DNA from: Flavobacterium frigoris PS1
Lineage (GTDB): Bacteria > Bacteroidota > Bacteroidia > Flavobacteriales > Flavobacteriaceae
Length of the DNA stretch: 64,000 bases
Direction of reading: 5' to 3'
Assembly (NCBI RefSeq): GCF_000252125.1
Contig: NZ_AHKF01000019.1
Location: 1 to 64,000 of the forward strand
Each line of letters starts with the position of its first letter. The first letter of the stretch is position 1. The notes beneath the pieces are model-generated. The model was not told where the DNA came from. It was given only the letters and a program-made list of their open reading frames with translations, and did no database searches. The position numbers and the translations under genes were made by a program. Below, in pieces: positions 2,607 to 63,672 of the stretch.

Positions 2607-2779
2607 GATTCATTAGTACGACTCTGGTTAGATTTGTTACAAAGTACTGCTTTTTTATTTTGTAGCACAGCTTTTTTGAGGCGCAATAAACAGTCGTCCC
2701 GCTGTACATTACAATCTTTATTTTTCTCTAAAGAAAAGAAAAACAAAGGATTTTCATTTCCATCGTGGCTAATGGACAT
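2603..2779 (-). CDS. Possible 58-residue leader ORF upstream of the sigma factor
   Basis: An ATG at 2779 opens a 58-codon frame whose TGA overlaps the sigma-factor start as ATGA, an arrangement used for translational coupling. The peptide starts MSISHDGNEN, holds four cysteines and has a basic C-terminal half. I do not recognise it. It is the only sizable open frame in the 216-base gap, but a frame this short can arise by chance and base composition does not settle it. Confidence 0.25.
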   Translation of the reverse strand: MSISHDGNENPLFFFSLEKNKDCNVQRDDCLLRLKKAVLQNKKAVLCNKSNQSRTNES

Positions 2780-2822
2780 GTTTAATGTTCTTACAGGTTT
2801 TTTTTAGGGGTTTTACCAAAAT

Positions 2823-3890
2823 TTACAGCTGATGATTTTTTTTGCCATAATAATTTACTAGCAAATTGATAAATTTACTGTAGCTCTGCATTCCATCTGC
2901 TTGCTGATTTAGCTTTAGAAAATTATCATAAAAAAGATGAAAACCAGTTTGTATTGCGGTTTCATATTCTTCTCTAAAATCTTTGCTTTCCTGATAGTTT
3001 TTTATAATTCCAGGATGAACAGTTTTTAGCAGCTGGTTAAAAATGGGCTTATTACGCATTTCCCAGTTGCCTAGGCAGTATCGCAATGCAAAGCTATATC
3101 CTGAATATTGAAAGTACAAATTGTCATTTTTTACTGAGGCCAGGAAGCCAATGAAATTGCATTCAGTTTCGCTAGCAAATCCTAATTGGTGCGCCATTTC
3201 GTGGCAGGATGTGGTCGGGAAATTATACATTGGCCCTAAATAATTTACTTGCGCCTCATTAGTAAATGGGTTTAGATAACCGCCAAATCCCATATAGGTT
3301 AAAGGCAGGCTGATTAGTGATTTTTTTGCACTCAAATTCCTGTAAGAAAAGAAGGGGTGGGTGATGGCTAAATTTTCATAACCGTTCATGCTCATTTTGA
3401 ATGCTTGTTCCTGAGAGTAGGGGAATACCACTTTTACACTGTTGTTCTTTGTTATTTGATTTTGGATGGCATTGGTTTTTGCGATCAGTTTTTTTGTAAA
3501 TTGAAGTAGTTCCTCATCAGAATAATTTCTTTCGATTGCCATTTTTTCAAAAAGAGGTTGGCGATAATAATTCATGGCCCATAGCAGATGAAACATAAAG
3601 TAAAAAATAGAAACAAAACTTAAAACAGCTAAAGCATTATCCTTCCAGTCCAGTTTCCAAGTTTTTCTTTTAATCCAGAACCATCTCACTATAAAAAAGA
3701 TTAAAATAAAATAAATAAAATCACCTACCGAAAAAGGAATGCTTCCAAAAGTTGTTCTTGAAAATGACGTGATAACAGGGTAGAAGCCGTTGCTGTAATA
3801 GCGTTCCACATATTTCGGAAAGAAAGGAATAATTTGAAGAATAATTATTTGTACCAAAAGAAAGAGCGGAAGAATGTGTTTTTGTTTCAC
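2823..3890 (-). CDS. DUF3810 membrane protein with metallopeptidase-like HExxH-type site
   Basis: 355 residues. Three hydrophobic segments lie in the first ~115 residues, then a soluble domain with HEMAHQLGFASE. This reads as an HExxH-like zinc site (HEMAH) with a following acidic residue, as in DUF3810 proteins of Bacteroidota, so a membrane-anchored zinc protease is plausible but unproven. The start is GTG at 3890: an in-frame TAA lies just upstream and no ATG precedes the first membrane segment. It is divergent from pepD. The spacer holds the pepD promoter and a weaker TACCTTTA box for this gene. Confidence 0.85.
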   Translation of the reverse strand: MKQKHILPLFLLVQIIILQIIPFFPKYVERYYSNGFYPVITSFSRTTFGSIPFSVGDFIYFILIFFIVRWFWIKRKTWKLDWKDNALAVLSFVSIFYFMFHLLWAMNYYRQPLFEKMAIERNYSDEELLQFTKKLIAKTNAIQNQITKNNSVKVVFPYSQEQAFKMSMNGYENLAITHPFFSYRNLSAKKSLISLPLTYMGFGGYLNPFTNEAQVNYLGPMYNFPTTSCHEMAHQLGFASETECNFIGFLASVKNDNLYFQYSGYSFALRYCLGNWEMRNKPIFNQLLKTVHPGIIKNYQESKDFREEYETAIQTGFHLFYDNFLKLNQQADGMQSYSKFINLLVNYYGKKNHQL

Positions 3891-3958
3891 AGCAATGTTT
3901 TATAAAATGTAAAGGTAATTACAATATCTATTAGTGCCGAAAAAGAGTTTAAACTTTG

Positions 3959-3966
3959 TAACTTTG
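3959..3966 (+). promoter_or_regulatory. -7 promoter element for pepD (TAACTTTG)
   Basis: Exact TAnnTTTG match 34 bases before the pepD ATG, in the spacer between two divergent genes. Confidence 0.6.
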
Positions 3967-4000
3967 AATTTTAAAAACAATATAATTCAAATTTAAATAA

Positions 4001-5464
4001 ATGAGTCAAGAAATAAGAAATTTAGAGCCCAAAGTACTTTGGAATAAGTTTGCCGATTTAAATGCCGTGCCTCGCCCCTCTAAAAAGGAGGAACGAGTAA
4101 TTGAATTTATGAAAGACTTCGGGAAGAACCTTGGATTAGAAACTTTTGAAGATGATATCCGAAATGTAATTATTCGCAAGCCGGCCACTGCAGGAATGGA
4201 AAATCGTAAAGCGATTGTGATGCAAGGGCATTTAGATATGGTGCATCAAAAAAATTCAGATACTGTTTTTGATTTTGATACACAAGGAATCGACATGTAT
4301 GTTGATGGAGACTGGGTACGTGCCAAAGGAACAACCCTTGGTGCTGATAATGGTCTTGGAGTTGCCGCAATTATGGCAATATTAGAAAGTACAGATATTC
4401 CTCATCCTGCTATCGAAGCATTATTTACAATTGACGAAGAGACAGGAATGACTGGTGCTTTGAATCTAAAAGGCGGAATTCTTGAAGGTCAAATCCTGTT
4501 GAATTTAGATACAGAAGAAGATGATGAAATCGATATTGGTTGTGCTGGAGGTATTGACGTTACTGCAACAGCAGAATATGATGAAGAGGAAACTCCAGAA
4601 GGTTCAGTAGGTTATAAAATCACTGTAAAAGGATTAAAAGGCGGACATTCAGGAATGGATATTCACAAAGGTTTAGGTAATGCAAATAAAATTATGAACC
4701 GTTTGTTATTTGATGGTTTTGATAACTTTGGATTACAAATTTCTGAAATTTTAGGAGGAAGTTTACGTAATGCAATTCCAAGAGAAAGCGTTGCTAAAGT
4801 GATAATTGCTGAAGTGTATGATGAAGCGTTTGTGTATGATATGCAACAAATCGTAAACGACATCAAAACGGAGTTAAAAACTACAGAGCCAAATCTAGAG
4901 GTTGTTTTTGAAAAATTAGATTCAGTTCCAGCTAAAGTTATGCCTTCTATTGCTCAGTTTTATTTTGTTAGAGCAATGTACGCTGCTCATAATGGGGTTT
5001 ATGCTATGAGTGCTGATTTTGCTGATCTAGTAGAGACTTCTAACAATATTGCTAAAGTAGTATTAGGCCAAGGGAATCTTTCGGTTCAATGCTTAACACG
5101 TTCTTCTGTAGAAACAGCTAAATTTGATTTAGCAAATAGTTTACGTTCTGCTTTTGAATTGATGGGATGCGAAGTGGAACTTTCAGGATCTTATCCGGGC
5201 TGGACACCCAATGCTGAATCAGAAATTTTGGATGTTTTAGTTCCTCTTTACGAAAAGCAAGGTGGAGAAAAACCGAGAGTGGTTGCATGTCATGCAGGAT
5301 TGGAATGCGGTATTTTGGGAACTAATTATCCGGAAATGGATATGATTTCTTTTGGGCCTACTATTCATGGAGCGCATTCTCCTGATGAAAGAGCTAGTAT
5401 CTCTTCTTCTCAGAAATTCTGGAAGTTTTTAGTGGAAATTTTAGCTAATATTCCAATGAAATAA
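4001..5464 (+). CDS. pepD: Aminoacyl-histidine dipeptidase (M20C peptidase)
   Basis: 487 residues, full length for PepD. This cytosolic two-zinc peptidase splits Xaa-His and other dipeptides. Zinc and catalytic motifs are in place: GHLDMVH near residue 77, GADNGLG near 114, the DEETGMTGA glutamate pair near 148, DTEEDDEIDIG near 170, and the lid-domain motif GGHSGMDIH near 217. The C-terminal zinc histidine lies in FGPTIHGAHSPDE. Monocistronic, with its own promoter and a strong terminator. I see nothing unusual in it. Confidence 0.95.
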   Translation: MSQEIRNLEPKVLWNKFADLNAVPRPSKKEERVIEFMKDFGKNLGLETFEDDIRNVIIRKPATAGMENRKAIVMQGHLDMVHQKNSDTVFDFDTQGIDMYVDGDWVRAKGTTLGADNGLGVAAIMAILESTDIPHPAIEALFTIDEETGMTGALNLKGGILEGQILLNLDTEEDDEIDIGCAGGIDVTATAEYDEEETPEGSVGYKITVKGLKGGHSGMDIHKGLGNANKIMNRLLFDGFDNFGLQISEILGGSLRNAIPRESVAKVIIAEVYDEAFVYDMQQIVNDIKTELKTTEPNLEVVFEKLDSVPAKVMPSIAQFYFVRAMYAAHNGVYAMSADFADLVETSNNIAKVVLGQGNLSVQCLTRSSVETAKFDLANSLRSAFELMGCEVELSGSYPGWTPNAESEILDVLVPLYEKQGGEKPRVVACHAGLECGILGTNYPEMDMISFGPTIHGAHSPDERASISSSQKFWKFLVEILANIPMK

Positions 5465-5492
5465 TAGGAAATCATTTCATATAAAAATAAGT

Positions 5493-5520
5493 AACCCTCG
5501 TTTATCACTAAACGAGGGTT
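5493..5520 (+). terminator. Terminator of pepD
   Basis: Perfect 12-bp stem (5493-5504 / 5509-5520) with a TCAC loop, followed by a T-rich tail. It sits between convergent pepD and the small basic protein gene and may serve both. Confidence 0.88.
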
Positions 5521-5536
5521 TGTTATTTTAAAGAAA

Positions 5537-5647
5537 TTAGTCTCTTTTAGGAGCGTTTTTCTTTTCTCTTTTTTCGTCTTTTTTTTCTTTAGCCGTTTTA
5601 AGAGGCTCTTTTTTTGCGGTTTTCTTCGCGTCTTGACTTTTTGCCAT
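5537..5647 (-). CDS. Small lysine-rich protein, 36 residues
   Basis: Short frame starting at ATG 5647 and ending TAA at 5537. The peptide begins MAKSQDAKKTAKKEP and ends KNAPKRD. About two fifths of its residues are lysine or arginine, with several glutamates and no hydrophobic core, so it should be disordered and could bind nucleic acid. It occupies its own intergenic slot facing the pepD terminator, and the codons look like genuine flavobacterial usage. From memory, similar MAKSQDAKK proteins occur across flavobacteria; no function is known to me. Confidence 0.7.
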   Translation of the reverse strand: MAKSQDAKKTAKKEPLKTAKEKKDEKREKKNAPKRD

Positions 5648-5715
5648 GATATAAGTATTAGGGTTTTCTATTGTACTGTAAGTAAATGTATATAATATTT
5701 TGATTGTTTTAAATA

Positions 5716-6054
5716 TTATTGCAAGAAATCACCATCTATGATTAATAATTCGGCTCCATTTACTGAAATGGAACGATGCGAGCTTTCATTATCGGATACT
5801 ACATAGCTCATTCCTTCTGAAACATATGTTTCTTCCCCTGATTCCATTTCGCTTATTAGATGTCCTTTAAGGCAGTGTACAACGTGCCCTTTTTGGCACC
5901 AATGGTCAGCCTGATAATTTTCTGAATAAGTAACTTTTCGAATTCTAAGTCCGCCTATTTGTATAGTTTGAGATATGACGGCTCCGGTTTCTCCGGGATG
6001 TTCTGTTTTTTCTATGTTGTCCCAATTAATAGCTTGGAAAGGTATGTTCGGCAT
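5716..6054 (-). CDS. Small cupin-fold protein of the DHCW-motif type
   Basis: 112 residues forming a single cupin-like barrel. The motif ADHWCQKGHVVH near residues 49-60 supplies His/Cys ligands where classical cupins have GxxxxHxH, followed by GHLISEMESGEE and a second strand block with SSHRSI. This fits the family named DHCW motif cupin fold protein, although the order read here is D-H-W-C. Enzyme activity and ligand are unknown. The gene is monocistronic and lies downstream of a 12-bp hairpin. Confidence 0.78.
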   Translation of the reverse strand: MPNIPFQAINWDNIEKTEHPGETGAVISQTIQIGGLRIRKVTYSENYQADHWCQKGHVVHCLKGHLISEMESGEETYVSEGMSYVVSDNESSHRSISVNGAELLIIDGDFLQ

Positions 6055-6099
6055 AATTTGAGTAGTTTAATTAAAACTTAAATTCGTTTTTAAAATGAA

Positions 6100-6127
6100 A
6101 TCCTCAATTATAACGATAATTGAGGAT
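6100..6127 (-). terminator. Terminator of the carboxypeptidase-like domain gene
   Basis: Perfect 12-bp inverted repeat (6100-6111 / 6116-6127), 48 bases past the stop of the minus-strand gene ending at 6175. On the minus strand it is followed by a T-rich stretch. It also lies about 45 bases upstream of the cupin gene, so some role in that leader cannot be excluded. Confidence 0.7.
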
Positions 6128-6174
6128 CATATATTTTTATGTGTTTAAACACATAATTTGCTGTTGCCGAATAT

Positions 6175-6942
6175 TTATCTTTTTTTCAAAATCTTATATT
6201 CTTCATAGCAGCCACTTATGGCATCCATAATTTGCAGATCATTTGCTGTTTTTATGAAAGATTCCGAGTAATTGCAGCGTTGTAATATTTCGGCAATTTC
6301 TCTTTTATCTACACCAAGTAGTACGGCTATGGTTTCTCTATCAAACTTAGATTCTAAAAGGTTTCGAACGGTATCGTCCTTCTTCATCTCTTTAAGCTTT
6401 TTGAGCTCCTTAGGGTTGTTTCCAAAGAAATTATACAGCATGTCCGCTGGATTGAATATAGAGCCTAGAACTCTTCCAAACGCATTTGGGGAGTATTCGC
6501 CAGCTTCATAGCCGTGCGTTAATCCTGAAATACTATAACGATAGTTTTCGTTTGTTGGAATTGTCTTCGAATCAACCTCCAGATAGCCCGTTAGGTTAAA
6601 AGGTCTGATCACCACTTCCTCTAATGCTATGGCTTTCTCGGTAAGGAATATTTTGGCAACTTTATTTTTTATCCAGTCATTGGTGACTTTAACCCTTAGG
6701 GATTGAAAGCCTAGAAAAGAAAGATGTAACGTATCCGTCGGCTGGACATCGATTTCAAAGTAACCTTGTGAGTCGGTTCTTGCTCCTCTGACTTTATTAA
6801 TGTTGATAATATTGACATTAATTAGGGGTGACTTAGTGTTATCGTTGTAGATATAACCGGATACTTTTTGGGAGTGAACTATATCCTGTGCTGAAGCGGC
6901 TGTGGATAGTATTAAAAAAAAGAAGACTACAAAATATTTCAT
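6175..6942 (-). CDS. Secreted protein with carboxypeptidase-regulatory-like (CarboxypepD_reg) domain
   Basis: 255 residues. A signal peptide ends near ASAQD (residue 19). Residues ~25-105 form a CarboxypepD_reg-like beta-sandwich: VSGYIYNDNTKSPLINVNI, then GYFEIDVQPTDTLHLSFLGF. This is the same module found at the N-terminus of SusC proteins. The remaining ~150 residues are mostly helical and match nothing I know. It is probably periplasmic or outer-membrane associated. Monocistronic between two terminator or promoter regions. Role unknown. Confidence 0.78.
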   Translation of the reverse strand: MKYFVVFFFLILSTAASAQDIVHSQKVSGYIYNDNTKSPLINVNIININKVRGARTDSQGYFEIDVQPTDTLHLSFLGFQSLRVKVTNDWIKNKVAKIFLTEKAIALEEVVIRPFNLTGYLEVDSKTIPTNENYRYSISGLTHGYEAGEYSPNAFGRVLGSIFNPADMLYNFFGNNPKELKKLKEMKKDDTVRNLLESKFDRETIAVLLGVDKREIAEILQRCNYSESFIKTANDLQIMDAISGCYEEYKILKKR

Positions 6943-55545: not shown

Positions 55546-56898
55546 CTATTTGTTTTTATCTTTTCTCTTTTTGTCTCTCGTTTTTAACATATTGCGATTG
55601 ACAGATCCATGAGTTTTTTTCTTGGTAACTCCAGGACCACCTAAATTGACTTTTTTATTCTTTTTACTTTTCTCTTGAAAAGCACCATCTCCTTCAAGCT
55701 TCTTCTTTTTCATTAAGAACTTAACTACTTGTCGCTCTTTCTCTGGCTCGATTAGTTTTGCAGAAATTTCTACCTCTTCAGGGAATGTTTCGATTGCTAA
55801 TTCCATATTCATCAAGACTTCGACCTCGACTTTATACTCTTCTTCACGTGGAGCAATAAAACTGATTGCAATACCGGTTTTATCCGCACGACCTGTTCTA
55901 CCAATCCTATGCATGTATAATTCAGGCATGTCAGGCATTTCAAAGTTGACAACATGTGTAATGTTAGAAATGTCCAATCCTCTAGCCATAATGTCCGTTG
56001 TTATAAGACCACGAAGATTTCCTTCTTGAAACGAAGCCATAGTGCTCAAACGGTAATTTTGAGATTTATTAGAGTGGATTACTCCAAATTGATCTTCAAA
56101 ATCTTCCTCGATACGCTCATGAAGCATATCAGAAATTTTCTTATTGTTGACAAACACTAAAACACGACTCATGTTTTCATTGTTTTGCAATAAGTGTTTT
56201 AATAGATTTACCTTAGTGTTAAAGTTGGGAGCATTATACGCGATTTGTTTAATGTTTTCTAACGGAGTTCCAGAAGCTGAAAGTGTAACCTCCTCAGAAT
56301 AGTCAAAATAGTCGTTCAAAATCGCATCCACTTCATCAGTCATGGTTGCTGAAAAGAGAATGTTCTGACGTTTTTTTGGCATCATAGCCAAAATAGCTGT
56401 TAACTGAGTACGGAAACCTAAATTTAACATTTCATCAAATTCATCGATAACTAGTTTCTGCATGTCCTCAAAACGGATTACATTGTCTAATGTTAAATCC
56501 ATGATTCTTCCGGGCGTTCCTACCAGTATGTCGCAACCTTTGTAAACAGTTGTTTTTTGTGTATTGATGTTCACTCCACCGAAAATAGCCACAGTACGAA
56601 CCGACATGTATTTCGTCAGTTTTTCTACTTCCTCTGCAACCTGAACTACAAGTTCACGAGTAGGGACTAGGATTACTATTTTTGGGGTATGGCCTTCAGT
56701 AAATTTGTATAATTTTAATAAGGGTAAAAGATAGGCAAATGTCTTACCAGTTCCCGTTTGTGCAATACCCATCATGTCGCGACCTGACATTATCACAGAG
56801 AAAGTTTTTTCCTGAATAGGAGTAGGTGTTGTGTATCCTAAATCATCAATTGCTTTTTGTACTGATTTAGGAAGGTTGAATTGCTCAAAAGTGGTCAT
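55546..56898 (-). CDS. DEAD-box-type RNA helicase with DEFD motif II
   Basis: 450 residues. Core motifs: AQTGTGKT, PTRELV, GTPGR, motif II reading VIDEFDEM (D-E-F-D in place of DEAD), SAT, MARGLD and HRIGRTGR. The two acidic residues that bind Mg-ATP are kept, so it should be active. A short Lys-rich tail (~395-450: KKKKLEGDG.., KTRDKKRKDKNK) replaces the RGG tail of the helicase at 7030. A role in RNA unwinding or ribosome assembly is inferred. A -7 element lies 17 bases upstream. Confidence 0.93.
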   Translation of the reverse strand: MTTFEQFNLPKSVQKAIDDLGYTTPTPIQEKTFSVIMSGRDMMGIAQTGTGKTFAYLLPLLKLYKFTEGHTPKIVILVPTRELVVQVAEEVEKLTKYMSVRTVAIFGGVNINTQKTTVYKGCDILVGTPGRIMDLTLDNVIRFEDMQKLVIDEFDEMLNLGFRTQLTAILAMMPKKRQNILFSATMTDEVDAILNDYFDYSEEVTLSASGTPLENIKQIAYNAPNFNTKVNLLKHLLQNNENMSRVLVFVNNKKISDMLHERIEEDFEDQFGVIHSNKSQNYRLSTMASFQEGNLRGLITTDIMARGLDISNITHVVNFEMPDMPELYMHRIGRTGRADKTGIAISFIAPREEEYKVEVEVLMNMELAIETFPEEVEISAKLIEPEKERQVVKFLMKKKKLEGDGAFQEKSKKNKKVNLGGPGVTKKKTHGSVNRNMLKTRDKKRKDKNK

Positions 56899-57005: not shown

Positions 57006-58271
57006 TTATTTAAAACGAAGATCCCATGACAAAGTAATATTGTAAATCCAAAAGTAATTGCCTTGATCGAAGGTGATTTCTTGGTGCGTAACACCAAATT
57101 GTGCTCCCCAGGCATTTTTTTTATTTGCGGTCGTAAAATAATAGCCCATATTTAGTTTTTGGGATTTTAGATTCACAATTGCGCTTTGATTTGCGCTGAA
57201 ATTAAATTGGTTAATTTCTGGAGAAAATCCCATTCCAAAAGTAAAACCTAGGTAATTATCAGCATCGCTTCGGTATTTTCTGTACGTAAAAGTTCCAGAA
57301 GAACTGGTGCCATTGTCGCCTGGTGTAAAATAAGGGCGGATAGACAAATAGCTGTTTCCAGTATACCATCCTATCGAACCGGTATATATATTAGTCGTTG
57401 TATCGTATTTTAGAGAACGGAATCCAAGTGAAACTTCGAAGCTTTTAGGTAATGATTTATAAAGCTCGGCGCCATATCTTAAATCTGGAAAAAGGAACGT
57501 ATTTGCTACACCCACATTCAGATAAGCATAGACTCCTTTTGCAATTTTTGGATACATATCCAATTCAAATTGAGTTCCATTTTCATTAAACCTTCTGTTG
57601 AAGTTAAATTTAGCTATTACGCTTCCGTATTTTGTTTGTCGGCCGTAAGCTAAAGTATAATATTGCATCGGATCAAAGACTTCTGAATACAAATCTACTG
57701 CCGTTATAATTCCAATTGTATTATTTCTAAGCGTTGTACTTAAATTAGCTTTATAGTCTTTAGCCTTTTGGTCTTCGGGGTTTTTGTCTAATATATATTC
57801 TACTGTACTGAAAGCTTCTAAAGGGTTCTTTGTATTTTCTTGTGCTGTTGCTTTCAAATATAATATCTCGGCATCATCTGGAAATTGTTTCAATGCTTCA
57901 GTGGTCATTTCTAAGGCAGTGTACGGTTTTTCTCCCCAGATTTCATTTTTTATTGCAGCAATCCATGTAGTTTTGTTCTGAGGATCTTTCTCTAATACAT
58001 AAGCAAATTCTTTTCGTGCATTTTTGTATTCACTATCCCAAGAATAGGTAGAGGCTAAAAAAGAACGAATATCATGATAGTCTGGGTATTTTGTCAAAAT
58101 AGACAATAGAGTATCTTGAGCTTGCTTCCTGTGGTCATTGAACGCCAATTGACGTGCAGTCTCAAAAGAAGTGTCTGGATTACCATTATAGGTTTTTCCT
58201 TGTCCATATGTTTGGAACACGCAAGCAAAGGCAACTATAAAACTGAGCTTAATTACTGTTTTTGAAATCAT
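57006..58271 (-). CDS. TPR protein with YaiO-type outer-membrane beta-barrel
   Basis: 421 residues. A signal peptide (1-23) is followed by helical TPR-like repeats (~30-175: ETARQLAFNDHRKQAQDTLLSILTKYPDYHD, YKNARKEFAYVLEKDPQNKTTW) and a YaiO-type barrel (~190-421) ending in an aromatic strand (YNITLSWDLRFK). TPR plus barrel in one chain is the design of the polysaccharide exporters PgaA and BcsC, though this barrel is smaller. Its start overlaps the stop of the LtaS-like gene by 4 bases (ATGA), indicating coupled translation. Last gene of the five-gene operon; export of a polymer is inferred. Confidence 0.87.
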   Translation of the reverse strand: MISKTVIKLSFIVAFACVFQTYGQGKTYNGNPDTSFETARQLAFNDHRKQAQDTLLSILTKYPDYHDIRSFLASTYSWDSEYKNARKEFAYVLEKDPQNKTTWIAAIKNEIWGEKPYTALEMTTEALKQFPDDAEILYLKATAQENTKNPLEAFSTVEYILDKNPEDQKAKDYKANLSTTLRNNTIGIITAVDLYSEVFDPMQYYTLAYGRQTKYGSVIAKFNFNRRFNENGTQFELDMYPKIAKGVYAYLNVGVANTFLFPDLRYGAELYKSLPKSFEVSLGFRSLKYDTTTNIYTGSIGWYTGNSYLSIRPYFTPGDNGTSSSGTFTYRKYRSDADNYLGFTFGMGFSPEINQFNFSANQSAIVNLKSQKLNMGYYFTTANKKNAWGAQFGVTHQEITFDQGNYFWIYNITLSWDLRFK

Positions 58272-60706
58272 TCTTTTAGGGATTTTTTGAAATTTAGGAA
58301 ATCATCATTTTTAGGATATTTTTTTATGATACTATCAATGATTTTATTTGATTTTGAAATGTTGTTTGTTCGTTTATAAGCCTGGGCTAATTTAAGTGCG
58401 AGTTCTGGTGTTTTTACATCATTTTTCATTGCTTTTTTAGCAATTGCAATTCCTTTTTCATTTTGGCCAGACCACCAATATACGTCCATTAAAGCGAGGT
58501 AGCTGTCATTGTAAAAGGGAGTTCTTTTTACTACGTTCAATAATTCGGATTCGGCATTTTTGTAATCGCCATCCCAAGCTAATGTTCGTGCTTTTAATGT
58601 TCTTACATCGCCATAATTAGGTAATTCATTTAAAATATAATTACAAAGTAATCGTGCTTTTTCTCGCTCTTTATTAAAAGCAAATTCTCTGGCTAACAAG
58701 AATGTCTCGTCAAAATTCAAATCTTTTGTCAATTTTTTAATAACAACTAGTTCTTTTGCTGAAAATTCAAAAGCAGGTTGTGTGTATATATTTAAAGAAT
58801 TCGGGATGATTTTGTTTTTCTGTGTTAAGTAGGCATTTAATCTTTTGAACTCTTGTAAAGAGTCGGTAACCGTTTTTAAAACAGCAGCGTCTTCAATTTT
58901 GCTAATGTTGAAATTGGAGTTTATTTTAAATAATTCTCCATCAGAATAGAGATAGTCCTTGTAAATATAATCGTTAATACTTCCCTTGTAGCGCATTAAA
59001 GGGATGTGGTGCATATTTCGAAATTGTTTTGTAGTGTCTAATCCTTGGCTCATCCAGGCAGTTTTCTCCATCTTGTTGAACTTGTAGTTATTCATTAAAA
59101 AAGAAAGTAAACTAGGGGTAACGTCCCAATGTGATGAAACGGATTTAAATGTTTCCGGTTTTTTTAGCATGGGACTATAAATGAAAAACGGAACATGGAA
59201 GCGGCTTAATTTATCTCTTTGGGGTATTGGAATCAGTCTGTGATCACCTGTAATAATGAAAATTGTATTTTTAAACTCGGGTCTTTTAGCATAGGATTCC
59301 ATAAAGTTTTTGATGGAATTATCCGTGTAAAGTAAACAAGCAAAAATATCTTTGTACGCTTTTATTTCGGATGCTGAAGCGCCTAGATTCTTGTTGGAAT
59401 TCACAATGCTGTCTACCTTTTTTAAATAAGCATTTTTTGAAGGGAAATCAAAAGGCTCGTGATTGGTAAGCGTCATAATAATATCCAATCTCGGCTCTTT
59501 TTTACCAACAATTTCTGACAATGTTTTTCTGAAGATTTCAGCATCTGGGTAGCCCCATGAAAATCCTCCAGAATTTTCTTTTGTTTTTACGTAACCAGGA
59601 CCAAATTTATTGATGTCGATAACATTATCGATTCCATTGTACTCTAAGAAATTAATTTTTCTATCAAAACTAGATTCGTCACCGCTGTAATACGAAGTAG
59701 TGTAATCATTGGCTTTTAAAACACTGATTAGTGAAACATGAGAGGGTAAGGGGGTTAATTCCAAAAAACCTTTTTCTCCATATGGTAATGATCCTATTAA
59801 GGAAGGGAGAGCGCCAAAAGTCCGACCAGCATTACTGACGAAATTTTCCCAATACAATGATTTTGGAATTAAGGAATCGAGATAAGGTGTAAATCCTCTG
59901 TAAGCATTTTTGCCTGTGAATTCACTTCCTAATCCTTCTACGATGATCATTACTATATTTGGCTTCTCTTCATGTATTTCAAAAAAAGGAGACAAGACAT
60001 CTTCAGATGATTTAAAAGACTGGACTAGAGGATAGTCCTTTTTATAAAATAGGCTTGCTGAATTGGTTAAGTTCTTATCATTTTGAAAGCGGATGATATC
60101 AGCAGTAAAGAAGGATAACTTGTTTTGATAAGGAGCATTTGAAACTTCAGGAATAATAAACTTTAAACTGCCCAGAGTGAGTATCGCTAAACCCGAAATA
60201 ATATAAATTTTTCGCTCATTCGGATCGCTCATCAAAACAGTGTTTACTCCTAAATTGATGCCCAAGTAAAGAACTGGAAATAGAATAAAAGGAAAGAAAT
60301 ACAGATAGGACAATGATTCTGAAGCGGTAACGGTTGTGTACATATCCCCCATAGAATATCCTAGGATATCAGCCCCAAGGTTTATTAGCGTGGTAAGACT
60401 GTATTTTACCAGGGCAAATTGACCTATTATAATTACACAAAATAGTATTTTAATAGCAATATCATTGTATGGCTTTTTGATAAAAAGAAAGGCTACATAC
60501 AGAGGTAAAAGCAATAAACCAATAATTAGTCCAGTCCAGAAATCATTAATTAATTTATATGCTAAAGTGGTCGCAACTTCTACTTCTATACCATTTGATG
60601 CAATAGAATATATTTCAAATAAAGTAATCAGCCAAAATGTAAAGATTAGCGAGAGTGTTAAATAAATATAATTTGAAGTAGTATTAAAAGATAATTTAAT
60701 TTTCAT
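58268..60706 (-). CDS. LtaS-like membrane transferase (alkaline phosphatase superfamily) with C-terminal TPRs
   Basis: 812 residues. Five membrane helices (~13-35, 58-78, 86-106, 133-153, 166-186) precede an extracytoplasmic catalytic domain (~245-560): metal E257 in IIVEGLGSE, probable nucleophile T296 in GRTFGAL, metal residues D488/H489 in TGDHRLIP, and HVPFFIYSP. No CxPxR sulfatase motif is present, so a phosphotransferase (phosphoglycerol or phosphoethanolamine type) is likelier than a sulfatase. TPR-like helices occupy ~680-812, an uncommon addition that mirrors the TPRs of the next protein. It could decorate the polymer made by the adjacent GT2. Confidence 0.88.
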   Translation of the reverse strand: MKIKLSFNTTSNYIYLTLSLIFTFWLITLFEIYSIASNGIEVEVATTLAYKLINDFWTGLIIGLLLLPLYVAFLFIKKPYNDIAIKILFCVIIIGQFALVKYSLTTLINLGADILGYSMGDMYTTVTASESLSYLYFFPFILFPVLYLGINLGVNTVLMSDPNERKIYIISGLAILTLGSLKFIIPEVSNAPYQNKLSFFTADIIRFQNDKNLTNSASLFYKKDYPLVQSFKSSEDVLSPFFEIHEEKPNIVMIIVEGLGSEFTGKNAYRGFTPYLDSLIPKSLYWENFVSNAGRTFGALPSLIGSLPYGEKGFLELTPLPSHVSLISVLKANDYTTSYYSGDESSFDRKINFLEYNGIDNVIDINKFGPGYVKTKENSGGFSWGYPDAEIFRKTLSEIVGKKEPRLDIIMTLTNHEPFDFPSKNAYLKKVDSIVNSNKNLGASASEIKAYKDIFACLLYTDNSIKNFMESYAKRPEFKNTIFIITGDHRLIPIPQRDKLSRFHVPFFIYSPMLKKPETFKSVSSHWDVTPSLLSFLMNNYKFNKMEKTAWMSQGLDTTKQFRNMHHIPLMRYKGSINDYIYKDYLYSDGELFKINSNFNISKIEDAAVLKTVTDSLQEFKRLNAYLTQKNKIIPNSLNIYTQPAFEFSAKELVVIKKLTKDLNFDETFLLAREFAFNKEREKARLLCNYILNELPNYGDVRTLKARTLAWDGDYKNAESELLNVVKRTPFYNDSYLALMDVYWWSGQNEKGIAIAKKAMKNDVKTPELALKLAQAYKRTNNISKSNKIIDSIIKKYPKNDDFLNFKKSLKE

Positions 60707-60731
60707 GGCATGGATATTTGTTTTCTTTCGT

Positions 60732-62168
60732 CTATTTTTTTTCGGTATTTGTCATTCCTTTTCTTGTCATCTCTCCCCATTTCTTCTTTTTGTTAAAATA
60801 GTAGTCTATGTTTCCTACAACAGCGGAATAGACAATAAAGGGATGAACAGCAAAAGGTTCTAAGAAAGCGATCTTTAATAAATTAAATCCTATTCCTTTC
60901 TTCTTATACTGATGGTAAGTGAGTTCTTCCGATAAAATGGCAACAATGGAAAATAAGACTGTAAACAAATAGGCCATAATGATAAACGCAGCCGTATAAT
61001 CCCACCTTACTTGTTTAAGTGCGACAAGAATCCCAAAATACAATAATCCTAGGACTTCGATTAACGGTGCTAATCTTTCAAAAAACAACCAATATGGATA
61101 ACTTAAAAGACCCATGGATCTATATTTACGATTAAACCCAATTTTTCGATGTTTTCTGAGTGTTTCAATTGTACCTCGGGTCCATCTGTTTCTTTGAGAA
61201 ATGAATATTTTATAATTATCGGGGGCTTCTGTCCAGCATAAGGGGTCAGGAATATATGCTACCTTATATTTCTCTTTTTGCTCCTCCATAAATCCTCTCA
61301 TTCGAACAATAATCTCCATGTCTTCTCCAACCGTCTTTGTATCGTAGCCTCCAACTTCAATGGCTATCTTTTTGTCAAACATGCCAAAGGCTCCTGAAAT
61401 AACTAGTAATCCATTAAGTCTACTCCATGCCATTCGGCCTAATAAAAAAGCGCGTATGTACTCCAGAATTTGGCCCTTTTCGAGCATTTTTTTTGGCAGA
61501 TTAACATCTATTAATTTACCATCTTTGATTATACAGGAATTTGCGATTCGGATTACTCCTCCCGCGGCAATTACCTTGGTATCTGTAGATTCTAAAAATG
61601 GTTTTACCATTTTTTGAAGTGCCTCTTCGAGCAATAAACAATCTACATCTATACAAGCGACATACTTATTATTACTTAAATTTAGGCCTGTGTTTAATGC
61701 ATCTGCTTTTCCACCATTCTCTTTATCTACGACAATCAATTTTTCAAATGCCGGATTCGTGGATTTAAAAATGCCTGCCCTAAGTGGTTTTGTTGGGATT
61801 TGTTCATTAACAAGAAAATCTACTTTTATCAAGTCATAAGCTTTGATTAGTTTTTCTAAGCTGTCATCTTTGCTTCCGTCATTTACTATAATTACATCAT
61901 AATTTACATAATGATTAGATAATAACGAACGTACGTTTTCAATAATATTCAAGCTTTCATTGTAAGCCGGCGCTATAATTGAGATGGAAGGTGCTATAGT
62001 AGAAGATAATATTTCTTTGTAGTTAACAAAGCTATTTTTTTTCATATATGCTATGGTTTCTGTCGCAGAAATTATTGCCAAAACAATGTACGAGCCTATT
62101 GTTGTAATGGCATAAACAAAAAATATATAACGAATTACAAGAAAAATTTCAATAGTATTGATTTCCAT
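60732..62168 (-). CDS. Processive-type family 2 glycosyltransferase (membrane synthase)
   Basis: 478 residues. An N-terminal helix (~8-35) is followed by a cytosolic GT-A domain with D97 in VNDGSKD, D174-V-D176, the catalytic acidic pair in VGEDME (E282/D283) and QRNRW (325-329, the Q-x-x-R-W acceptor-tunnel motif). At least four C-terminal helices follow (~365-455). This is the layout of PgaC and other processive synthases that polymerise and extrude a polysaccharide. No PilZ domain is attached, so c-di-GMP control is not evident. It starts one base after the HEAT gene stop. Sugar unknown. Confidence 0.91.
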   Translation of the reverse strand: MEINTIEIFLVIRYIFFVYAITTIGSYIVLAIISATETIAYMKKNSFVNYKEILSSTIAPSISIIAPAYNESLNIIENVRSLLSNHYVNYDVIIVNDGSKDDSLEKLIKAYDLIKVDFLVNEQIPTKPLRAGIFKSTNPAFEKLIVVDKENGGKADALNTGLNLSNNKYVACIDVDCLLLEEALQKMVKPFLESTDTKVIAAGGVIRIANSCIIKDGKLIDVNLPKKMLEKGQILEYIRAFLLGRMAWSRLNGLLVISGAFGMFDKKIAIEVGGYDTKTVGEDMEIIVRMRGFMEEQKEKYKVAYIPDPLCWTEAPDNYKIFISQRNRWTRGTIETLRKHRKIGFNRKYRSMGLLSYPYWLFFERLAPLIEVLGLLYFGILVALKQVRWDYTAAFIIMAYLFTVLFSIVAILSEELTYHQYKKKGIGFNLLKIAFLEPFAVHPFIVYSAVVGNIDYYFNKKKKWGEMTRKGMTNTEKK

Positions 62169-62169
62169 A

Positions 62170-63273
62170 TTAGTTGTGTTCTAAAAATTCAACAATTCTA
62201 ATAAAATCTGGATCTGTTCCTAAATGCTTGTGAATATTGAATGTACTTGAATTGATCATTTTCAAATTTTTTAAAGCGGACAGCTTAATTTCAAAATTTT
62301 CATGGTGAATATATTCAAGTAAAAATGGTTCATCATCACTTTCAGGCATTTTTTCCATCATTTTGAAAAAGGCGATTTGTTCTTCTTGACTACATTCGCT
62401 AAAATTGCTCATTACAATACTTTTTGCTACTATGATATTCAAATTCCCTAAAACATTAAGTAATTCGATTCTTATTTTTTCATTTTTGTGAGCTAATAGT
62501 TCAATAAGATCCTCTTTCGCTTGAAACTGGATGTAAATGTCAGCAAGCTTTAAGGCAAAAATGACTACTGTGTCGTTTGAAGATTTCAACCAAGGTTTAA
62601 TATCAAAAACTTGTTGGTCGTCAAAACGCTGGAGCACTTCAAGTAATTGAATTTGATCCCACTCAGATAATGGAGTTTGTAACAGATCTAAAAAATCAAG
62701 CCCTTTGAAACTAAATAAATTCACCAAATATAATTGCATTTCTTTACGAACTTCATTTTTGGGATGGTTAATCAAGGTAATAACTTCATCGTGAACTTCT
62801 TTTATATGAAATTGTGTTAGTTCTCTGACACCTTTGGCGACTACATACCATTTTTTACTTCTCAGTTTAGATATAGCAAAATTAATAAGTCCAGTTTGAA
62901 AATAAAGTTTTTGAATTGATTCGTCTAGTTCTCCAGATATTTCATTTTTTAATTTGAGTAGTGTTAAAACAATAATACTTCTTTTAAAGGGGTCAGAGAG
63001 GTCCTTTTTTAATTTATTAATAATGATTTGTTGCTGGGGACTGATTTCTTGGTCCTCATTCCCAGAATACAAATAGGTGATAAGGTTTAACTCATATTTC
63101 ATTTGATAAGTACCACGTATTCTTTCATTATTTCTCAAATGGCTTCTTAAATATTTTAAGTAAATGATTGAAATAAAAATAGACAAAAGAAAAATACTAA
63201 TCATCAACCAGACCAATTCAATGATAGGTGGAGAATTTTGTAGATATTCAAAAAATGATTGTTCGTTATTCAT
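62170..63273 (-). CDS. Membrane-anchored HEAT-repeat protein
   Basis: 367 residues. One N-terminal membrane helix (~14-38) is followed by a long cytosolic helical solenoid. HEAT-like repeats are visible at ~150-345: AKGVRELTQFHIKEVHDEVITLINHPKNEVRKEM, DTVVIFALKLADIY and KIRIELLNVLGNLN. Such solenoids are protein-protein docking surfaces. Set between a receiver-only protein and the synthase, with a 1-base gap to the latter, it is a good candidate for the link that carries the regulatory signal to the synthase. No enzyme motif. Confidence 0.83.
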   Translation of the reverse strand: MNNEQSFFEYLQNSPPIIELVWLMISIFLLSIFISIIYLKYLRSHLRNNERIRGTYQMKYELNLITYLYSGNEDQEISPQQQIIINKLKKDLSDPFKRSIIVLTLLKLKNEISGELDESIQKLYFQTGLINFAISKLRSKKWYVVAKGVRELTQFHIKEVHDEVITLINHPKNEVRKEMQLYLVNLFSFKGLDFLDLLQTPLSEWDQIQLLEVLQRFDDQQVFDIKPWLKSSNDTVVIFALKLADIYIQFQAKEDLIELLAHKNEKIRIELLNVLGNLNIIVAKSIVMSNFSECSQEEQIAFFKMMEKMPESDDEPFLLEYIHHENFEIKLSALKNLKMINSSTFNIHKHLGTDPDFIRIVEFLEHN

Positions 63274-63303
63274 CGAGTTTACTTCAGGTAGTTATTTGAG
63301 AGA

Positions 63304-63672
63304 TTACCTAAGTAGTCTTTTTATTCTAATAACCAATTCATTGGGGCTAAAGGGCTTACTCATAAAGTCAGTGGCACCCAAATTAAAAGCTTTTAAAACT
63401 ATTTCTTCTTGTCCGGCTGCAGAAAAAACAATTATAGGGGTTAGCATATTTAATTTGTATCTTACATGACTAATCACTTCCAATCCGCTAATAAAAGGCA
63501 TCATAATATCCGTCAAAATCAACTCGGGTTTATGTTCTTCAATTAGTTCAATAGCTTTTTTACCGTTGTCAGCTATTAACAATTTGTACCCTTCTTTTTC
63601 TAATCGGAATTTCAGTAAAGAAGAAAGTAATGAATTGTCTTCGGCCAAAACAATTTTTTGCAGTTCACTCAT
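63304..63672 (-). CDS. Single-domain response regulator
   Basis: 122 residues, a complete receiver domain and nothing else. Acidic pocket E11/D12 (VLAEDNS), phosphoacceptor D55 in LTDIMMP, S84 in FSAAG and K106 in MSKPFSP are all present. With no output domain it must act by binding another protein, most simply the HEAT-repeat product encoded 30 bases downstream. No kinase lies in the window near it. Probably the first gene of the operon; no clear TAnnTTTG box was found upstream. Confidence 0.92.
   Translation of the reverse strand: MSELQKIVLAEDNSLLSSLLKFRLEKEGYKLLIADNGKKAIELIEEHKPELILTDIMMPFISGLEVISHVRYKLNMLTPIIVFSAAGQEEIVLKAFNLGATDFMSKPFSPNELVIRIKRLLR

Follow-up and report, generated by a model that had tools for sequence, protein, structure and literature searches.

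The window analysed here, the first 64,000 nucleotides of contig NZ_AHKF01000019.1 of Flavobacterium frigoris PS1, carries on its minus strand five genes encoding, in this order, a single-domain response regulator (receiver domain, REC), a HEAT-repeat protein, a processive-type family 2 glycosyltransferase (GT2), an LtaS-like membrane transferase with C-terminal tetratricopeptide repeats (TPRs), and an outer-membrane protein combining TPRs with a YaiO barrel. We read this operon as a synthase-dependent exopolysaccharide secretion system that is gated by REC and HEAT, decorated by the phosphotransferase and exported through YaiO, and give this reading a probability of about two in three. An initial annotation of the window had proposed the same scheme, and its reading proved largely right in outline.

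From the observed gene set, gene order, co-occurrence, fusions and active-site residues, and from predicted folds, we infer the polymer, the added group, the gating and the docking as follows. GT2 would polymerise a sugar and thread the chain across the inner membrane, as its family and motifs suggest. The membrane-anchored HEAT protein would act as a dedicated GT2 partner on the cytoplasmic side, through which phosphorylated REC would switch the synthase, REC itself being fed by a kinase or Hpt relay whose genes adjoin the operon in some relatives and would lie elsewhere in this genome. The LtaS-like enzyme would sit beside the synthase exit and move a phospho-alcohol from a phospholipid head to the emerging chain, and the TPRs of the transferase and of YaiO would lead the chain to the barrel, whose BcsC/PelB-like layout suggests that it leaves there.

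Gene order and the conserved core

The five co-directional open reading frames (ORFs) are separated by gaps of 30, 1, 25 and -4 bases, spacings that had been given correctly at the outset and are exact by the ORF ends, and together with conservation this spacing suggests that the genes form one unit. Domain scans used Pfam and NCBIfam models judged against curated cut-offs, and all five Pfam assignments (Response_reg; HEAT_2; Glycos_transf_2; Sulfatase with TPR_19; YaiO with TPR_19) were above cut-off, in agreement with the domain identities first assigned.

Bacterial and archaeal genomes were scanned with the transferase alignment and the best 80 of 522 relatives were kept as loci; these include Flavobacterium, Lutibacter, Polaribacter, Aquimarina, Bizionia, Gelidibacter and others, the closest being F. 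degerlachei, whose transferase is 88% identical in the best segment. Gene order could be tested in the 74 loci with a long enough contig, inserted ORFs between members being permitted (extra ORFs occur e.g. in L060, L070 and L102). The order REC-HEAT-GT2-transferase-YaiO on one strand was kept in 68 of these 74 loci, one of which, the metagenome-assembled L052, has GT2 and transferase fused; it was not kept in L077, L078, L081, L085, L088 and L091. The full order was also visible in one of the six loci too short for the test. Conservation of the order in other genomes, chosen beforehand as a test that could overturn the proposal, was thus observed.

Since the 80 loci had been chosen via the transferase, co-occurrence was assessed separately on 60 genomes (G000-G059), including the F. 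frigoris genome itself (G000, a draft that is 99.95% complete), with thresholds of E <=1e-50 for GT2, E <=0.001 for the YaiO family, E <=1e-15 for the HEAT profile and E <1e-90 for the transferase. GT2, YaiO and HEAT were each present in 25 genomes, the same 25 and F. frigoris among them, and none of the three in the other 35; the genomes are related and not independent, hence no p-value is attached to this count. HEAT directly adjoins a GT2 in all 27 HEAT matches, YaiO lies close to GT2 in 22 of the 25 core-bearing genomes, and the transferase was found in 11 of the 25 and in none of the 35. The F. frigoris genome holds a single YaiO and a single full-length GT2 of the operon kind, three other GT2 matches being partial, which makes a chance neighbourhood unlikely.

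Across the phylum, YaiO was detected in 69 of 296 genomes, and 56 YaiO regions, spanning 57 of 73 YaiO places, were fetched; four further regions fetched from the transferase search are left out of this count. A GT2 was held by 51 of the 56, and 50 of these 51, spread over 16 family handles, show a same-strand HEAT gene no more than 600 bases away, as judged with a HEAT profile that was broadened with survey sequences and in whose construction gene position played no part. A small REC was found within 7 kb in 41 of the 51. Anywhere in the 56 regions, the transferase occurred in 20, a DUF4838 protein in 7 and a kinase like the Lutibacter one in 12. What is shared across the phylum is therefore a HEAT-GT2-YaiO core that mostly comes with REC, and the transferase belongs to a set of optional parts: the fourth slot is variable, holding an LtaS-like transferase, a DUF4838 protein or neither. 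Together with the conserved order and the shared 25 genomes, these frequencies bear out the early assignment of REC and HEAT to the system.

A second type of module, ordered HEAT-GT2-YaiO-DUF4838-REC, follows the operon directly in tandem in four loci (L032, 13380-19513; L056; L063; L117). Five hybrid loci combine the two types. In these, identity to the second type exceeds that to the first for GT2 (66-69% vs 43-44%), HEAT (35-37% vs 24-25%) and REC (63-66% vs 46-50%, three read). YaiO (60-62% to the first type vs 23-25% to the second) and the transferase (59-62%) belong to the first type; the second module type has no transferase. By these identities HEAT appears to travel with GT2, and the transferase with its own YaiO, a pattern that could also stem from plain deletion between tandem modules. 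In G010, two HEAT-GT2 pairs lie about 6 kb apart, with the only YaiO at a distance of about 2.1 Mb by coordinates (less if circular).

Proposed control of the synthase

Among the HEAT family members of up to 420 amino acids, 122 of 124 have one hydrophobic segment within the first 100 residues, and in 121 of those 122 more lysine and arginine residues come after the segment. Because positive charges follow the membrane helix, the HEAT repeats should face the cytoplasm, the side of REC and of the GT2 active site. REC has no output domain, and its phosphoacceptor site (E11, D12, D55, S84, K106) is identical in all 77 aligned sequences, the window's own included. Directly before REC, 14 of the 80 loci encode a REC-containing ORF of 768-785 amino acids; the one that was scanned, from L044, has the domain organization PAS-PAS-HisKA-HATPase-REC with a weak Hpt match. 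Near the operon, L075 furthermore has an Hpt protein above cut-off, and L107 has one at 24.1 bits (cut-off 24.6).

For cyclic di-GMP (c-di-GMP), the genome-wide check covered GGDEF only, no genome search being made for EAL or PilZ: GGDEF gave no match in the F. frigoris genome and a match in one of the 60 genomes (G004), with 8 of 14 control genomes matching. The Pfam scan of the five operon proteins gave no PilZ match. A genome without a GGDEF match argues against c-di-GMP as the switch.

It is possible, if rather doubtful, that such a secretion system operates without this gating, HEAT serving as a scaffold or assembly factor for GT2 and REC controlling something else, such as the location of the complex. 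A small REC is missing nearby in 10 of the 51 GT2-bearing regions, when HEAT is present in 50 of them; and large additions occur in some HEAT proteins, in several cases ahead of the membrane helix. In F. frigoris itself no kinase stands beside REC, which counts against our main reading. The complete phosphorylation site of REC in every sequence aligned nevertheless argues against this alternative, as do the hybrid-kinase or Hpt genes beside the operon in some relatives, the lack of GGDEF in the genome, and the distant locus L137, in which REC domains sit on a GGDEF protein directly upstream. Control through HEAT by a phosphorylated REC is the reading we retain.

Two distant members differ in what surrounds the core. 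The L137 protein (4907-6529) has the organization REC-REC-GGDEF and is encoded directly before HEAT, and in L139 a GGDEF-EAL protein (2683-6036) is encoded near the core. These loci possibly represent a c-di-GMP-linked version, in which the same slot is fed by c-di-GMP enzymes where these are present. Enlarged HEAT proteins were seen in L119, L122, L142, L154, L159, L164, L166, L167 and L169; six of the nine have 136-290 residues ahead of the main membrane helix, and sub-threshold matches to LysM (L119) and SPOR (L122) were recorded.

Proposed synthesis, export and decoration of the polymer

The GT2 motifs D97, D174/D176 (DxD, 174-176), E282-D283 and QRNRW (325-329) are invariant in 10 aligned sequences, and hydrophobic segments lie on both sides of the GT2 domain, in line with the processive D,D,E/D,QxxRW type recognised initially. 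Its best NCBIfam model is PgaC_IcaA, at 130.7 bits far under the cut-off of 422.3; the CelA model gave 38.3 bits (cut-off 699.1). The profile of the DUF4838 protein matches beta-hexosaminidase over its C-terminal part (6.5e-13) and also, weakly and over a short stretch, beta-N-acetylhexosaminidase. PgaC_IcaA is the top model for the operon GT2 and for E. coli YaiP alike; together with the DUF4838 match, this makes an N-acetylhexosamine polymer our best guess for the product.

The predicted model of the YaiO protein (mean predicted local distance difference test, pLDDT, 88.5; loop 352-365 under 50) consists of a signal-peptide-like helix, nine helices in the TPR region and 14 strands. The top three Foldseek rows were BcsC (2.4e-9), BcsC (6.7e-9) and PelBC (3.5e-8), so that model and search, at low TM-scores, are consistent with a BcsC/PelB-like layout and with the outer-membrane TPR-plus-barrel protein that had been annotated.

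Several observations weigh against this reading of the operon. The BcsC and PelBC matches have TM-scores of 0.35-0.46 on the YaiO model and root-mean-square deviations of 8-14 A, with general porins next in the list; by Z the barrel is closest to small-molecule channels (TodX, Omp33, OmpG, FadL and CymA, Z ~18-20); and the predicted template modelling score (pTM) is only 0.69. With 14 predicted strands instead of 16-18, the modelled barrel is smaller than those of known synthase-dependent exporters, for which PMC9601211 gives 16 to 18 strands. Besides the relatedness of the 60 genomes, YaiO and GT2 are on different contigs in G003 and G059, and G010 has them on one contig at a distance of more than 1 Mb. 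In 14 of the 25 core genomes there is no transferase match better than LtaS-like paralogues, and the transferase is therefore not essential. Five YaiO regions have no GT2 (L115, L145, L146, L171 and L172, the contig of L146 ending just after HEAT), one GT2 region (L140) has no HEAT, and in L078 (Flavobacterium pectinovorum strain 9) the transferase, YaiO and DUF4838 remain, with no REC, HEAT or GT2 seen in the locus.

The small barrel would also suit an operon that makes a short or lipid-linked envelope glycan, such as an osmoregulated periplasmic glucan or a teichoic-acid-like polymer, to which the LtaS-like enzyme adds head groups, with YaiO serving as a structural or receptor-type barrel and not as an exporter. 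The weak transferase match to the OpgB-type phosphoglycerol transferase model NF009027 (35.2 bits) fits such a function, as does the fact that the closest solved structure to the transferase is an uncharacterised Vibrio protein (3lxq). Against it stand the full overlap of YaiO and GT2, both confined to one set of 25 among the 60 genomes, and the TPR-plus-barrel layout of BcsC and PelB at the top of the Foldseek list, and we consider it unlikely. Export through YaiO remains our preferred function for the barrel.

In the transferase, E257, D488 and H489 are present in all 72 aligned rows, and position 296 is threonine in 57 and serine in 15. The sulfatase signature C/S-x-P-x-R was found at the active site in none of the 72 rows; its one match, in L094, is near residue 154 and outside the active site. 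The AlphaFold2 model (pLDDT 86.7, pTM 0.83) gave Z scores of 35.5 to 3lxq, 34.5 to LtaS (4uor) and 33.6 to LtaP (LtaS/LtaP range 33.2-34.5), followed by YejM/PbgA at 28-29 and sulfatase rows at no more than 27.6; phosphoethanolamine transferases of the BcsG/EptA class had no entry among the 50 matches listed in each of two fold searches, which does not exclude likeness. The predicted fold and the E, T/S, D, H set of metal ligands and nucleophile thus place the protein in the LtaS/OpgB-type class of alkaline-phosphatase-superfamily transferases, as anticipated from the missing sulfatase CxPxR motif. That the enzyme should instead remove or hydrolyse a group, in the manner of a phosphatase or sulfatase, is suggested by the superfamily and by the Pfam label Sulfatase, yet it is improbable given the lack of the active-site signature in every row, the Thr/Ser nucleophile position with E, D and H in all, and a Z to LtaS/LtaP well above that to any sulfatase.

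The transferase TPRs and the YaiO TPRs are 28% identical over 147 residues (hhalign probability 97.9; pairwise E 5e-22, in a search space of one sequence with composition adjustment off), and a search of the F. frigoris genome with the transferase picked out its own gene, a further LtaS-like gene and, at 4.4e-14, the TPRs of YaiO. A common origin of the two TPR regions would fit these matches, and their homology makes a shared chain path or docking plausible. Fusions join the transferase to the synthase as well. GT2-transferase fusion proteins occur in G018, G040, G053, G297, G377, G381, G430 and G562; the TPRs are absent from three aligned fusions of this kind, and the remaining ones are of equal length. 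Family f5 gave 28 matches, 27 of them within open frames of 1,144-1,175 amino acids; the GT2 half was read in five, and the match in G389 is marked with an internal stop. A second kind of fusion, with TPRs, was found in L081, L085, L088, L091, G179 (L163, probably the genome of L091) and L052. Such natural fusions point to GT2 and transferase acting together, which supports the initial reading. In eight loci (L113, L153, L156, L160, L161, L166, L167 and L169) there is a family of proteins of 383-396 amino acids with 25-90% mutual identity; the transferase is TPR-less by length, or fused, in seven of the eight. The family gave no Pfam match (three scanned) and no NCBIfam match (one scanned).

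The added group is probably a phospho-alcohol. A search for pgsA gave none above cut-off in 40 genomes, an absence left unproven by the controls, of which only 6 of 13 matching genomes pass. Of two pgsA candidates in F. frigoris, one scored 91.6 bits as phosphatidylserine synthase (own cut-off of 107 not reached) vs 26.3 as pgsA, and the other 58.4 bits as an inositol-phosphate synthase type (under cut-off) vs 21.3 as pgsA; phosphatidylserine decarboxylase is present. The lipid evidence thus leans toward phosphatidylethanolamine as donor, and phosphoethanolamine is at least as likely an added group as phosphoglycerol. The donor may differ from that of LtaS, as the transferase has sgdessfdrk where, in the alignment, Listeria LtaS has hgnyksfwnr.

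Table 1. Features of the operon in the window, with the evidence for each (positions on the forward strand).
Feature	Position	Strand	Evidence
REC, single-domain response regulator	63304-63672	-	122 aa; Pfam Response_reg 94.2 bits, residues 7-117
HEAT-repeat protein	62170-63273	-	367 aa; Pfam HEAT_2 32.9 bits, cut-off 27.7
HEAT membrane anchor, residues 20-38	63160-63216	-	Kyte-Doolittle mean 2.59; K/R: 0 in 12 residues before, 3 after
GT2, processive type, flanking hydrophobic segments	60732-62168	-	478 aa; Pfam Glycos_transf_2 75.4 bits
LtaS-like membrane transferase with C-terminal TPRs	58268-60706	-	812 aa; Sulfatase-fold domain 97.3 bits, TPR_19 33.6 bits
Transferase N-terminal membrane-helix region, residues 7-189	60140-60688	-	helices in model; hydrophobic segments
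Transferase alkaline-phosphatase-fold catalytic domain, ~residues 246-640	58787-59971	-	E257, T296, D488, H489; fold Z
Transferase C-terminal TPR region, residues 646-812	58271-58771	-	homologous to YaiO TPRs
TPR-YaiO outer-membrane protein, proposed exporter	57006-58271	-	421 aa; YaiO 220.8 bits, cut-off 23.9; TIGR04390 190.9, cut-off 32
YaiO protein TPR region, residues 29-182, taken as periplasmic	57726-58187	-	nine model helices between 32 and 181; Z ~18-20 to TPR proteins
YaiO protein 14-stranded beta-barrel, residues 183-421	57009-57725	-	predicted model

On the same strand, 107 bp downstream of the operon, lies a DEAD-box-helicase-like gene (55546-56898; named by eye). The nearest convincing gene upstream of REC is about 750 bases off and unrelated by its look.

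Relation to known systems

The synthase-dependent systems studied so far stem largely from Proteobacteria, and c-di-GMP switches many of them. The operon shares with pga/ica (PgaABCD) a GT2 that scores best with PgaC_IcaA among NCBIfam models and an exporter made of TPRs and a barrel. It differs in that scores stay far from the PgaC cut-off and from that of the PgaA model (27.5-32.5 bits vs 366.65), in that the Pfam and NCBIfam scans revealed nothing PgaB- or PgaD-like among the five proteins, and in that an LtaS-like enzyme stands where pga has a deacetylase. The bcs system offers BcsC at the top of the Foldseek list and, in phosphoethanolamine cellulose, the precedent of a phosphotransferase (BcsG) beside a GT2 synthase, whereas the operon GT2 is far from the CelA cut-off, the five proteins gave no PilZ match and the genome no GGDEF match, and BcsC has a barrel of 16 strands against the 14 predicted here. 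The initial claim that the set matches neither pga nor bcs therefore holds, since the operon proteins score under the curated cut-offs of those pga and bcs models that they resemble. Pel provides the third Foldseek row, and its synthase is not known to be a GT2 of the operon type. With LtaS/LtaP the transferase has in common the fold, the catalytic E/T/D/H set and N-terminal membrane helices; it differs in its score to the LtaS equivalog NF053595 (48.5 bits, cut-off 970 not reached), in its C-terminal TPRs and in being fused to GT2 in relatives.

The E. coli K-12 cluster yaiS-yaiP-yaiX-yaiO (L112, 378000-386000) likewise brings together a PgaC-like GT2 (YaiP, 100.5 bits to PgaC_IcaA) and a YaiO barrel (182.4 bits). 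Its YaiO, however, has 257 amino acids and is almost all barrel, a deacetylase and an acyltransferase (yaiX, split by IS2A) are annotated, and no REC, HEAT or LtaS-like gene is annotated there. Identity with the present system was accordingly set aside: this is a related operon, and only the GT2 and barrel types are common to both.

Among the matches listed in the open-licence PubMed Central literature, no description of a HEAT-GT2-YaiO operon was found, and the phrase 'YaiO family' had no match in that literature. The system seems an undescribed variant of synthase-dependent exopolysaccharide secretion, distinguished by a regulator of its own and by parts that can be exchanged; new here are the homology of the two TPR regions suggested by their sequences, the phylum-wide HEAT-GT2-YaiO core, the optional transferase and the predicted 14-strand barrel. 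We are evenly divided on the broader proposal of a phylum-wide synthase-exporter class in which a membrane-anchored HEAT protein, and not PilZ/c-di-GMP, would be the obligatory GT2 regulator, the signal coming from a phosphorelay-fed single-domain REC. This class would further use a 14-strand TPR barrel and interchangeable periplasmic modules, either a fused or TPR-docked transferase of the LtaS-like kind or a DUF4838 protein resembling hexosaminidases.

The natural GT2-transferase fusions offer a ready protein for structures of chain decoration during emergence. If our reading is true, HEAT and GT2 would form a clean partner pair for testing post-translational control of a synthase, Flavobacteria and their relatives would gain an overlooked matrix or surface polymer together with its control point, and the system would account for post-translational switching of matrix synthesis in bacteria without c-di-GMP.

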